NCBI GenBank assembly: GCA_018433765.1
Contig: JAHDQO010000002.1
Coordinates: forward strand, 62,001 to 126,000
Source of the DNA: Tissierellales bacterium
Lineage (GTDB): Bacteria > Bacillota > Clostridia > Tissierellales > Sedimentibacteraceae
DNA length: 64,000 nucleotides
Reading direction: 5' to 3'
This document shows positions 5,197 to 62,726 of this stretch, piece after piece. The translations under genes and the position numbers were made by a program. The notes beneath the pieces were generated by a model. The model worked only from the letters and a program-made list of their open reading frames with translations, was not told where the DNA came from and ran no database searches. The first letter of the stretch is position 1; every line of letters starts with the position of its first letter.

Positions 5197-5232
5197 TGAA
5201 CCTTATTAATATACTAAAGGTTCACTTTTTTT
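5197..5232 (+). terminator. Terminator after gpsA
   Basis: TGAACCTT at 5197-5204 pairs with AAGGTTCA at 5217-5224, followed by a C and a run of seven T. It suggests spoIVA has its own promoter. Confidence 0.8.
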
Positions 5233-5286
5233 ATTTTGTAATAAAAATAATATTCCAAGCATATAAATTAAGTGTACATATACAAT

Positions 5287-5303
5287 AGGAGGGGATTGTT
5301 ATT
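5287..5303 (+). promoter_or_regulatory. Ribosome binding site and ATT start of spoIVA
   Basis: AGGAGG at 5287-5292 lies 8 nt before the in-frame ATT at 5301. The spoIVA frame has a TAG stop at 5286-5288 and no ATG, GTG or TTG between that stop and the P-loop. The nearby TTG at 5296 is in another frame and reaches a stop within six codons. ATT is therefore the best start candidate. Confidence 0.7.
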
Positions 5304-6779
5304 ACCAATATAGATATATATAAAGATATAGCTAAAAGGACAAAAGGAGAGATATATATAGGAGTTGTTGGACCTGTAAGAACAGGAAAATCAACTTTTA
5401 TTAGGAAGTTTTCAGAAGCTGTTATGCTTCCAAATATTAAAAATGAATTTATTAAACAAAGAACTAGAGACGAAATGCCGCAAAGTGGTACAGGAAAGAC
5501 AATAACTACTACAGAACCAAAATTTGTTCCAGGTAGTGCTGTAGAAGTTGTAATTAGAGATAAAATTAGTGCTAATTTTAAGTTAATTGATTGCGTAGGC
5601 TATATGGTTTCTGGAGCTATAGGTCATCTTGAAGGTGAAAGTCAGAGATACGTTAATACACCTTGGCACAGAGAGCCAATACCATTTGTTGAAGCTGCAG
5701 AAATAGGTACTAAAAAAGTGATTAACGAACATTCAACTATTGGTCTTTTAGTTACTACAGATGGAAGTATCACTGAAATCAATAGGGACAATTATATTAT
5801 TGCAGAAGAAAGAGTAGTTAAAGAACTAAAAGAAATAAATAAGCCATTTATTATTTTATTAAACTCTTCAAATCCTAAAAATGAAAATACTATAGAGCTT
5901 AGTAAACAGTTGTCAGAAAAATATGGAGTACCTGTTCAGGTAGTAGATTGCTTAAATATTACAGATGAAGATATTGAATCACTTTTAGAAAAAGTGCTGC
6001 ATGAATTTCCAATAAAAGAAATAAACATTAATTTACCTAAGTGGTTTGAAGGACTAAATTATGGACATTGGTTGAAAAAGCAGTTAATACAAACATTAAG
6101 AGATAATCTAGAAGCTAGTAACAAAATTAATGATTTTAGCGGTAATAGTATTTTTACTGAAGATGATGAATATATTAAAGAATGCTATGTTGAGAATATA
6201 GAATTAGGAACAGGAAGTATAAATGTAAGGATAGACATAGATAAAAGCCATTACTATAAAGTTATTAGTGACTTAACTGGAACAGAAATTGTAGGGGAAC
6301 ATCAAATCTTAAAATTGATTGATGAGCTTGCAAAAGCTAAAAAAGAATACAGCAGAGTTGAAAAAGCTCTTAAAGAGGCAAAAGAAAACGGATATGGATA
6401 TGTTTCACCTGGAATTGAAGACATGATAATAGAAGAACCTGAAATATTTAAACAAGGCAGCAGATATGGAATAAAAATTAAAGCTAAGGCACCTTCGCTG
6501 CATATAATAAATGCAAATTTATCTACAGAACTTTCTCCATTAATTGGAAGTGAGAGCCAAAGTAATGATTTGATACAGTATTTAACAAATCAAATAGATG
6601 AAAATCCTCTAAATATATGGCAGGCACAGATATTTGGTAAATCATTGTACAGTTTAATTGAAGAACAGCTTGAAGGTAAATTAACTGCAATGCCAGATTA
6701 TGCAAGAAGAAAGATAAAAAGAACAATAGAAAGAATAGTTAATGATGGAAGTGGAGGTATAATCTGCATTATAATATAG
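5301..6779 (+). CDS. spoIVA: Stage IV sporulation protein A (spore coat ATPase), ATT start
   Basis: SpoIVA polymerises on the forespore surface using ATP hydrolysis and forms the platform for the spore coat. The first ATG (5424) would remove the Walker A motif. Reading from ATT at 5301 adds 41 residues and gives 492 residues, the length of the Bacillus subtilis protein. It places the P-loop GPVRTGKST at 24-32 with Lys30, the residue number of the known catalytic lysine in B. subtilis. The C terminus GGIICIII also matches the family. AUU initiation would be rare and could limit translation, but a sequencing error at the start codon is the alternative. No convincing promoter was found. Confidence 0.93.
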   Translation: MTNIDIYKDIAKRTKGEIYIGVVGPVRTGKSTFIRKFSEAVMLPNIKNEFIKQRTRDEMPQSGTGKTITTTEPKFVPGSAVEVVIRDKISANFKLIDCVGYMVSGAIGHLEGESQRYVNTPWHREPIPFVEAAEIGTKKVINEHSTIGLLVTTDGSITEINRDNYIIAEERVVKELKEINKPFIILLNSSNPKNENTIELSKQLSEKYGVPVQVVDCLNITDEDIESLLEKVLHEFPIKEININLPKWFEGLNYGHWLKKQLIQTLRDNLEASNKINDFSGNSIFTEDDEYIKECYVENIELGTGSINVRIDIDKSHYYKVISDLTGTEIVGEHQILKLIDELAKAKKEYSRVEKALKEAKENGYGYVSPGIEDMIIEEPEIFKQGSRYGIKIKAKAPSLHIINANLSTELSPLIGSESQSNDLIQYLTNQIDENPLNIWQAQIFGKSLYSLIEEQLEGKLTAMPDYARRKIKRTIERIVNDGSGGIICIII

Positions 6780-7058: not shown

Positions 7059-7136
7059 TGGTCGGGATGATAGGATTTGAACCTACGACCCCAAGTCCCC
7101 CAGACTTGTGCGCTAACCAAACTGCGCTACATCCCG
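7059..7136 (-). tRNA. tRNA-Pro (anticodon GGG)
   Basis: Read on the minus strand, a complete cloverleaf is seen. The acceptor stem is CGGGATG/CATCCCG, the D arm contains AGCGC...GCGC, the anticodon stem is CAAGT/ACTTG, and the 7-nt loop is CTGGGGG. Position 33 is T, the anticodon is GGG, and position 37 is G as expected for proline. The T arm holds GGTTCAAATCC. The discriminator base is A, and the CCA end is encoded (7061-7059). It would read CCC and CCU codons. Confidence 0.95.
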
Positions 7137-60326: not shown

Positions 60327-62726
60327 ATGAAAAATATAACAATAGAAGGTGCATGTATTCACAACCTTAAAGAAATTAATGTTTCAATACCAAAAAACAA
60401 ACTTATTGTAGTAACAGGTGTAAGCGGTTCAGGTAAATCTAGTCTTGCTTTTGATATTATATTTGAAGAGGGACGCAAACAGTATTTACAATCATTAGGT
60501 GTGTTTGCTCAAATCGACGAAGAAGACAAATTCAATAATATATCTGGCATAGGTCCAACAATAGCAGTACAGCAGAATATTATTCGTCAGAGTAATCAGC
60601 GTTCAACTATAGGCACTAAAACTAATATTTTAAAAATGCTTGCAATGCTTTATGCAGCGGAAGGAAAGATTTCTTGTTCGATATGTGGATCAATTGTTGA
60701 TGATGATCTGACATGCTCAAAATGTGGAAATACTGAAGAGCGTTTGCCTGCTAGCTATTTTTCATATAACAATTCAAATGGTATGTGTATGAAGTGCTCT
60801 GGAAAAGGATCATATTTTGAATTAAATATGAAAAAACTTGTTCCTGATAAACTCATGTCACTTGAAAAGGTTTTTGATAAAGTAAAGATAACACCTGGAC
60901 TTAAAAGGGTACTATATAGACATTTCAGCGATTACTTAAAAATGCCATTTTCACAAATTCCTGATGAAGTCAAAGAAGAGATAATATATGGACATTTCGT
61001 AAGTAATAATTCAGCAAATCGCAGTATTTGTTTGACAAGAATTTTTGAAGGCTTTGTCTACAAGTATGGTGAAGATCCTACCGGTATATACAAAATGGCT
61101 AAGTGCTCTGAATGTGGGGGATTTCGTATAGGTGAAGAAGCACGTAGAGTATTTTTAAATAGTAAGCATATAGGTGAACTTGGTACAATGACAATAACTG
61201 AATTACAAAACTTTCTTAATTCTTTTTCGAATAACAAGAATTTAACATTATTAGGAACTAATCTTCTTAATGATATATTGCATAAAACTAAGTGTTTAAT
61301 AAATTCTCGCCTTGGACATCTTTCTCTTTATAGACAAATGTCTACTTTGAGCGGCGGAGAACTTCAACGTCTTTTTCTTAATTCTCATCTTGAATCAAAA
61401 ATGGATTCTCTTATATATATTCTCGATGAACCTACGGCTGGCTTACATGAATCAGAAAAAACTGAACTACTGAAATCAATTAAGGCTCTTAAGGATTTAG
61501 GTAACACTGTCATTATTGTAGAACATGATAGAAGAACAATCGAAATGGCTGAGTATGTTATTGATATAGGACCAAAAGCGGGTATTGAGGGAGGACAGAT
61601 CATTTATCAGGGTGATGTAGGTGGTCTTCTACAATCTGATTTATCAATAACAGGTCAATATCTTTCACAAAAAATTGAAATGCCTGTAAGAAAAATAAAT
61701 AAAAATATTGAAGAAATGCCTAAAATTAAAATCAGGAATGCAAGAACAAATAATTTAAAGGATGTAACAGTTTCGTTTCCCTTAGGCGTACTTGTTGGAA
61801 TTGCAGGTGTATCTGGTAGCGGTAAGAGTTCTCTTATTTCAGATACTTTAATATCACTCCTCAAAGGTAATTTTTATGATAAGTCACATTATAATGAGAT
61901 GAATATTGAGGAAAAACTTGAAGGTATAGAGAATATTTCTGGATACGTTGAAGTATCACAAAATCCTATTGGTAGAAATATGAATTCTACTGTAGTGTCA
62001 TATATTGGCATTTGGGATAGAATACGTAAAATGTTTGCTAAACAGCCTGTAGCTATAAATCAAAATTTAACCCCTGGACATTTTTCATTCAATTCAAAAG
62101 GTGCCTGTTCTTTATGTGGAGGAAGTGGTCAGGAAAAAATATGGTTAGGTGGAAATTTCTTTCTTAATAATATTTGCAAAGAATGCCATGGAAAAAGGTA
62201 CAATGATGAAGCTTTATCGGTTAGTTACAAGGGCAAAAATATTACTCAGATTTTAGAAATGACTGTTTCTGAAGCCGTTACTTTTTTTGAAGATAATAGA
62301 GCAATTATATCTACCTTGACAGTTTTAGAGCGGGTTGGCATGGGATATATAAAACTTGGGCAGCCTACCCCAACTCTTAGTGGAGGTGAAGCACAAAGAA
62401 TTAAACTTGCGAAAGAGATTGGCAGACAACGAAAAGGAAATATTCTTTATGTTTTAGATGAGCCAACTGTTGGTCTTAGCCTTTATGATACTGCTAAGCT
62501 TATTGTGTTATTAGATGAATTGGTTGAAAAAGGAAATTCTGTAATTATAATTGAACATGATCCTGAAGTTATATCAGTCTGTGACTGGATTATCGAACTT
62601 GGTCCTAAGGGAGGATTAGATGGGGGAATGATTATCGCAGAAGGCTCGCCGCAAACATTAAAACAAAACCCTAATTCTATAACAGGGAGGTATTTAAAAA
62701 TAAATAATGAAAACATCAACAAATAA
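60327..62726 (+). CDS. UvrA-like ABC ATPase lacking the UvrB-binding domain (UvrA2/DrrC type)
   Basis: A 799-residue UvrA paralogue, about 140 residues shorter than repair UvrA. Both ABC domains are intact: Walker A GVSGSGKSS at 31-39 and again in the second half, with signatures STLSGGELQRL and PTLSGGEAQRI and Walker B ILDEPTAG and VLDEPTVG. After RSTIGTKTN a short zinc ribbon (Cys117, 120, 130, 133) replaces the ~115-residue UvrB-binding domain. Two further Cys-rich modules include CSLCGGSGQE. The last Walker B is followed by GLS rather than GLH. It is likely linked to drug resistance or DNA damage tolerance like DrrC, not classical excision. Confidence 0.9.
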   Translation: MKNITIEGACIHNLKEINVSIPKNKLIVVTGVSGSGKSSLAFDIIFEEGRKQYLQSLGVFAQIDEEDKFNNISGIGPTIAVQQNIIRQSNQRSTIGTKTNILKMLAMLYAAEGKISCSICGSIVDDDLTCSKCGNTEERLPASYFSYNNSNGMCMKCSGKGSYFELNMKKLVPDKLMSLEKVFDKVKITPGLKRVLYRHFSDYLKMPFSQIPDEVKEEIIYGHFVSNNSANRSICLTRIFEGFVYKYGEDPTGIYKMAKCSECGGFRIGEEARRVFLNSKHIGELGTMTITELQNFLNSFSNNKNLTLLGTNLLNDILHKTKCLINSRLGHLSLYRQMSTLSGGELQRLFLNSHLESKMDSLIYILDEPTAGLHESEKTELLKSIKALKDLGNTVIIVEHDRRTIEMAEYVIDIGPKAGIEGGQIIYQGDVGGLLQSDLSITGQYLSQKIEMPVRKINKNIEEMPKIKIRNARTNNLKDVTVSFPLGVLVGIAGVSGSGKSSLISDTLISLLKGNFYDKSHYNEMNIEEKLEGIENISGYVEVSQNPIGRNMNSTVVSYIGIWDRIRKMFAKQPVAINQNLTPGHFSFNSKGACSLCGGSGQEKIWLGGNFFLNNICKECHGKRYNDEALSVSYKGKNITQILEMTVSEAVTFFEDNRAIISTLTVLERVGMGYIKLGQPTPTLSGGEAQRIKLAKEIGRQRKGNILYVLDEPTVGLSLYDTAKLIVLLDELVEKGNSVIIIEHDPEVISVCDWIIELGPKGGLDGGMIIAEGSPQTLKQNPNSITGRYLKINNENINK

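Follow-up and report, generated by a model that had tools for sequence, protein, structure and literature searches.

In Escherichia coli, the translationally limited gene pcnB starts at AUU. The AUH start (AUU, AUC or AUA) of infC is autoregulated in the same species (as cited in PMC13009471), and passages of PMC13009471 describe conserved AUU or AUA starts with extended Shine-Dalgarno (SD) sequences in the Staphylococcus aureus genes cvfC1, ccpN, citZ and infC. According to the same passages, such starts give about 10% of the output of AUG in poor medium, and ccpN reaches up to 30% in rich medium (PMC13009471). The Streptomyces gene sigR starts at GTC and is repressed by IF3, the SigR made from this start being lowered by IF3 over-expression and raised in IF3 fidelity mutants, in the sections of PMC5472188 that treat it. 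A sequence-only reading of the locus studied here had given infC and pcnB as the known AUU cases, a list that is too narrow in view of S. aureus cvfC1, ccpN and citZ (PMC13009471) and of the GTC start of sigR (PMC5472188). AUU mis-initiation in E. coli increases when methylation of 16S C1402 is lost (as cited in PMC13317604), and PMC13317604 connects this methylation and AUU mis-initiation with a SpoIVA checkpoint in Bacillus subtilis; the passages of that paper on these subjects make no mention of a non-canonical spoIVA start. We found no report of one in our searches of the open-licence literature.

The spoIVA gene of the family Sedimentibacteraceae appears to be a new member of this known class, a conserved AUH start with an extended SD, in an unexpected gene: in the window no canonical start would give the full protein, AUH is conserved at the start position in the family, and the predicted SD pairing is stronger than in the spoIVA genes of order-mates. 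Similar to S. aureus ccpN (AUA) and cvfC1 (AUU), the family spoIVA has kept AUH across a clade with an extended SD near the start; unlike these genes, which encode a metabolic repressor and a small protein and whose starts were shown by ribosome profiling and reporters (passages of PMC13009471), it encodes a spore morphogenetic ATPase and its start is read from sequence. The infC gene, in E. coli and also in this family, likewise joins an AUH start to a strong SD, but infC is controlled by its own product, whereas spoIVA would be a downstream target. The AUU start is shared with E. coli pcnB, a gene that belongs to another lineage and not to sporulation. Streptomyces sigR has in common with spoIVA a non-canonical start in a stress or developmental setting, although its codon is GTC and not AUH, and both a role as a control point and an effect of IF3 were shown for sigR (PMC5472188, in the sections on its start).

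The window, a stretch of 64,000 nucleotides (positions 62,001 to 126,000 of the forward strand of contig JAHDQO010000002.1, assembly GCA_018433765.1) from a Tissierellales bacterium of the Sedimentibacteraceae, has the gene order der, plsY, gpsA, spoIVA (plsY assigned by eye, the other three by model). The features of the spoIVA region are listed in Table 1. The sole tRNA gene in the window, a tRNA-Pro (GGG), lies downstream of spoIVA on the minus strand (7059-7136).

Table 1. Features of the spoIVA region, in window coordinates
Feature	Position	Strand	Remarks
Likely terminator of gpsA	5197..5234	+	Stem TGAACCTT/AAGGTTCA, 12-base loop, T run; by eye
SigE-like promoter of spoIVA	5238..5268	+	GTAATAA 5238-5244, CATATAAAT 5260-5268; by eye
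In-frame stop TAG before spoIVA	5286..5288	+	Five codons 5' of the ATT start
Extended Shine-Dalgarno of spoIVA	5286..5298	+	AGGAGG 5287-5292 running into GGATT; predicted -13.6 kcal/mol; ends two bases before ATT
spoIVA	5301..6779	+	492 codons from ATT 5301 plus stop TAG 6777-6779; coding 5301-6776
AUU start codon (ATT) of spoIVA	5301..5303	+	AUH in 24/24 readable family genomes
ATA codon 20 of spoIVA	5358..5360	+	Rival internal AUH start; pairing -9.6 kcal/mol upstream
Walker A motif GPVRTGKS of SpoIVA	5370..5393	+	Residues 24-31, K30; lost with a start at 5424
First canonical in-frame codon of spoIVA, ATG	5424..5426	+	3' of the Walker A motif

Direct reading of the spoIVA frame finds zero ATG, GTG or TTG codons between the upstream TAG and ATG 5424. 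The codons following the TAG are GAG GGG ATT GTT ATT ACC AAT, and the 41 codons from 5301 to 5424 include those of the Walker A motif. This agrees with what the sequence-only reading had reported of the frame; its placing of AGGAGG 8 nt before ATT 5301 is also borne out, as is its protein of 492 residues with the catalytic lysine at position 30, as in B. subtilis. The further claim that the ATP-binding motif is hidden from gene callers holds as far as its basis extends, an open reading frame (ORF) list restricted to ATG, GTG and TTG, in which spoIVA appears as 5424-6779 (451 amino acids) and residues 1-41, with Walker A, are missing.

Against TIGR02836, the 492-residue protein is a full-length match above the curated cut-off (681 bits versus 460), with residues 3-492 aligned to positions 3-492 of the 492 in the profile. 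Three SpoIVA Pfam domains are also matched, the ATPase domain from residue 2 onward. This exact agreement with the N-terminus of the SpoIVA models counts in favor of a genuine AUH start. The match is the single one to SpoIVA in the whole genome (4.19 Mb, 38 contigs). In the part of PMC7549369 that numbers these residues, the Walker A lysine of B. subtilis SpoIVA is residue 30, the same as in the window, and that of Clostridioides difficile is residue 35, thus SpoIVA N-termini vary among Clostridia.

We searched 27 Sedimentibacteraceae genomes, including that of the window. A spoIVA match was obtained in 25 of them, and its start could be read in 24; no match was found in G005 and G019, and the match in G022 lies at the edge of a contig and covers the gene from codon 35 onward. 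Four loci (L030-L033) that repeat genomes already counted were excluded from the family count. Two genomes, that of the window and G026, are the sole representatives of their respective genera in the set searched. At the aligned start codon, all 24 genomes have AUH (14 ATT, 9 ATC and 1 ATA), a count limited in its weight for the AUH reading by the relatedness of these genomes, some of which are near-identical in the tree (G018 with G024; G003 with G009 and G023). Given that AUH is found at the aligned codon in 24 of 24, its presence is more than chance. The sequence-only reading had looked to sister genomes for a canonical codon at 5301 as evidence against its proposal, and none of those readable has one.

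The picture is different in the rest of the order. Among 249 genomes searched, 91 have a spoIVA match (25 in the family and 66 outside it), and 65 of these 66 order-mates have a readable start, G203 retaining only a C-terminal piece. The same codon is canonical in every one of the 65 (36 GTG, 24 ATG, 5 TTG). We also examined 76 further clostridial spoIVA loci (80 taken from 486 confirmed ones, minus L030-L033). A canonical codon lies exactly at the aligned position in 46 of them, and 75 have a canonical codon with an SD somewhere between 20 codons upstream and 7 downstream of the aligned start; in the one remaining locus, L089, codon 1 is ATG and the SD is weak. These canonically started genes of order-mates and other Clostridia encode the same protein, with the same N-terminal codon position, as those of the family. 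The family departs from its order-mates in residue 2 as well, which is T in 23 of 24 family proteins versus E, D or K in 61 of 65. As judged from the alignments, the AUH start of spoIVA is confined to one family among the genomes searched.

Pairing energies were computed against the 16S tail. The predicted SD pairing of spoIVA averages -14.9 kcal/mol in the family (n = 24) versus -12.5 kcal/mol in order-mates (n = 65), a contrast between one clade and the rest of the order for which the Mann-Whitney p value of 1.5e-11 is overstated, related genomes being treated as independent. The pairing predicted for the window's own spoIVA is equalled or exceeded by 6.2% of 660 sampled ORFs. Mean local folding energy showed no difference between family (-6.8) and order (-6.9).

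In four genomes (G000, which is that of the window, G014, G017 and G025), there is no canonical in-frame codon, upstream or downstream, that would spare Walker A. In the other 20 family genomes, the first downstream canonical codon is that of residue 20, 22 or 23 and precedes the motif by one to four residues; 15 of the 24 have no upstream in-frame canonical codon. Codons 2-26 show mostly synonymous variation in the family, and codon -1 varies between I, V, T and N. An internal start at codon 20 (ATA 5358 in the window) would retain Walker A, and this codon is TTG or ATG in 14 of the 24 genomes (13 TTG, 1 ATG), where it is preceded by an SD-like stretch (-4.6 to -9.1 kcal/mol); in the window, the corresponding stretch (-9.6 kcal/mol) stands before ATA with a 3-base gap. 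We nevertheless hold initiation at codon 20, the chief alternative for the start site, to be very unlikely, as 10 of the 24 genomes have no canonical codon there, and every one of the 24 shows stronger pairing at codon 1 (-12.1 to -15.6 kcal/mol) than at the first downstream canonical codon. Residues 2-19, moreover, show conservation at the protein level and fall within the Pfam ATPase domain. A similar stretch (mean -8.0 kcal/mol) is also found in the 65 order-mates, whose codon 1 is a canonical start, and therefore follows from the encoded residues. Use of ATT 5295, two codons before 5301, either alone or together with it, is very unlikely too. Codon -2 is ATT in 23 of the 24 genomes, as that alternative would have it, but it is GTT in G026, stands only two bases from AGGAGG in the window, and is followed by a codon at which the amino acid changes; pairing is also weaker from 5295 than from 5301 (-10.7 versus -13.6 kcal/mol). 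The conserved ATT at codon -2 is better read as a putative extension of the SD.

Initiation at a canonical codon elsewhere, whether at an upstream in-frame start or at ATG 5424, we take to be extremely improbable. Nine of the 24 family genomes do have an upstream in-frame ATG, GTG or TTG, but the window has none, and in five of the nine that codon is, by position, 5' of the predicted -10 element. In G003, G004 and G009 it falls in or near the predicted leader, and in G026 at about the 5' end of the leader, with an SD that is weak or badly spaced; a start at 5424 would forfeit Walker A. Nothing was found in favor of a sequencing error, a pseudogene, or altered decoding through a special initiator tRNA, and we give these next to no weight, since the codon is consistent across 24 assemblies, of which three comprise just one or two contigs, and the frame is open over 492 codons. 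The draft of the window's genome shows just 16 tRNAs, and the tRNA check therefore rests on the closed relative G024, among whose 83 tRNA genes no odd initiator was found, the only NAT anticodons being CAT and GAT. The ATT 5301 start put forward by the sequence-only reading is thus well supported, by AUH throughout the family, by the canonical codon that the order-mates have at this position, and by four genomes, the window's among them, in which no canonical start would preserve Walker A.

Upstream of spoIVA, the elements GGAATAA and GGCATATAAATT are conserved among family leaders (17 of the 24 compared, by eye), with G026 departing from the pattern. They look like a promoter for SigE, which may control spoIVA in the mother cell; this promoter type lies outside the coverage of our sigma-70 scan. 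From the position of these elements, the spoIVA leader would be about 27 bases long. The terminator scan detected no terminator for gpsA, its loop limit being 8 bases versus the 12-base loop of the candidate in Table 1. RNAalifold, applied to 17 of the 24 family leaders, found no conserved pair. By eye, we rejected a leaderless spoIVA transcript from the promoter-like TATACAAT (5279-5286), which is absent in relatives and would place the conserved SD outside the RNA, and also a conserved overlapping upstream peptide, as the frames differ among species.

We built a FastTree phylogeny of SpoIVA from the 24 family sequences (three partial) and 6 of the 65 order-mates. The family is set apart with support 1.00, and the branch between it and the six order-mates has a length of 0.59. 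A branch this long indicates strong divergence of the entire SpoIVA protein where the AUH clade arose. Parsimony on the tree makes AUU ancestral in the family; over a tree length of 2.8, the codon later switched three times between AUU, AUC and AUA, and never to AUG. As reconstructed in this way, a single switch at the base of the family, with AUU as the ancestral codon, explains the distribution of start codons. Third-base statistics gave no significant sign of selection against AUG: in the 21 full-length family spoIVA genes compared, 18 of 85 conserved fourfold sites are also without G throughout, and the absence of AUG is for this reason weak evidence of selection.

These observations are best read as a genuine AUH start in a spore morphogenetic gene, belonging to the weak and IF3-sensitive kind found in infC, pcnB, sigR and S. 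aureus ccpN and cvfC1. We consider it likely that the family spoIVA is translated from AUU (AUC or AUA in some species) by the ordinary initiator tRNA with the help of an extended SD, at a lowered, IF3-sensitive efficiency that the SD would partly offset. The start codon would be held in place by an SD helix running through AGGAGG into the following GATT, and the ordinary fMet initiator tRNA would begin SpoIVA at AUH. By analogy with other systems, AUH would initiate poorly and be discriminated against by IF3, giving less SpoIVA per mRNA than AUG, and SpoIVA output would be expected to move with IF3 activity, with the strong SD making up part of the loss. The sequence-only reading had proposed that weak initiation may limit SpoIVA synthesis in the mother cell. 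SpoIVA production is probably weak or specially controlled, and we infer that the AUH start may limit or time SpoIVA synthesis; the stronger SD of the family could fit compensation, with output held up, equally well.

It is also possible, though we incline against it, that the AUH start is genuine yet close to neutral, the strong, extended SD having made the start codon dispensable so that AUU was fixed by drift with an output close to that of AUG. The stronger SD pairing in the family would agree with this, as would the interchange of AUU, AUC and AUA and a third base at which G is not significantly avoided. Set against these points are the zero reversions to NUG in 24 readable genomes over the tree length of 2.8 and the S. 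aureus case, in which, according to passages of PMC13009471, an extended SD failed to restore AUG-level output. A more elaborate proposal, which we regard as rather unlikely, would put SpoIVA, the protein on which the spore coat is founded, under IF3 and P-site fidelity control, with good translation only upon a change in mother-cell ribosomes or IF3 late in sporulation or at low 16S C1402 methylation; the start codon would then act as a timer of coat assembly, with infC and perhaps rny as fellow members of a small AUH regulon.

Under the preferred reading, a weak AUH start with a partly compensating SD, it is unexpected that such a start, apparently gained once, has been kept family-wide in a spore morphogenetic gene. 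Annotation of such genomes based on ATG, GTG and TTG would yield a SpoIVA that lacks the ATP-binding site, and surveys of sporulation genes could be misled by it. The canonically started relatives are natural controls, such that a role of AUH starts as control points in bacterial development is directly testable.

Other genes in these genomes also have AUH at or near the expected start. Of the 27 family genomes searched, 25 have an infC match, and all 25 have AUH at the expected codon (13 ATA, 11 ATT, 1 ATC), which speaks for the AUH reading of spoIVA. A stop lies two codons upstream of this codon in 18 of the 25, and an in-frame canonical codon within 12 codons upstream is present in two genomes, G005 (TTG at -9) and that of the window. 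The infC gene of the latter (L184 / L217:12434, G000 C36:32434) has an ATC start, and its in-frame ATG at -2 is three bases from AGGAGG.

With a general relaxation of start codons in this genome in view, a reading that we set aside, we screened 864 kb of the window's genome (the window and 40 further stretches) for SD sequences, keeping 675 ORFs of at least 130 codons, of which 476 have a canonical start carrying an SD. Where an SD was present with no nearby canonical start, the codon at the site was ATA in 10 cases, ATT in 3, ATC in 1 and TTA in 6, with 3 each for GGA, AAA, TTT, GAG, GGT, TCA and CAG, among others. Most of these non-canonical sites look like internal chance sites, and because of this the 864-kb screen does not on its own show AUH enrichment. 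The candidates that it returned are infC, rny, an M20 peptidase and a CBS protein.

The rny gene, encoding RNase Y, appears to have an ATA start in the window's genome (L220:15807, G000 C36:161807), with a very strong SD of -18.4 kcal/mol. Matches to rny were found in 78 of 80 genomes, and the best 30 loci were read. Outside the family, 15 of the 20 loci among these best 30 show ATT or ATC, and no canonical codon, at SD distance (L309, L317, L318 and L320-L331). By eye, an in-frame canonical codon precedes the SD or falls inside it in L323, L324 and L326, and one follows a few codons later in L317, L318, L320 and L331. In the nine other family members among the same 30 loci, the codon is TTG. 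These loci suggest that RNase Y has an AUU-type start in much of the order.

The CBS-domain protein (L251:16993, G000 C30:316993) has ATA in the window's genome at the codon that is TTG or ATG in 16 of the 16 family relatives read (L333-L348), which are about 38-44% identical and of unsure orthology. An M20 amidohydrolase (L235:9713, G000 C13:149713) may start at an ATA that follows a strong SD (-15.0 kcal/mol).
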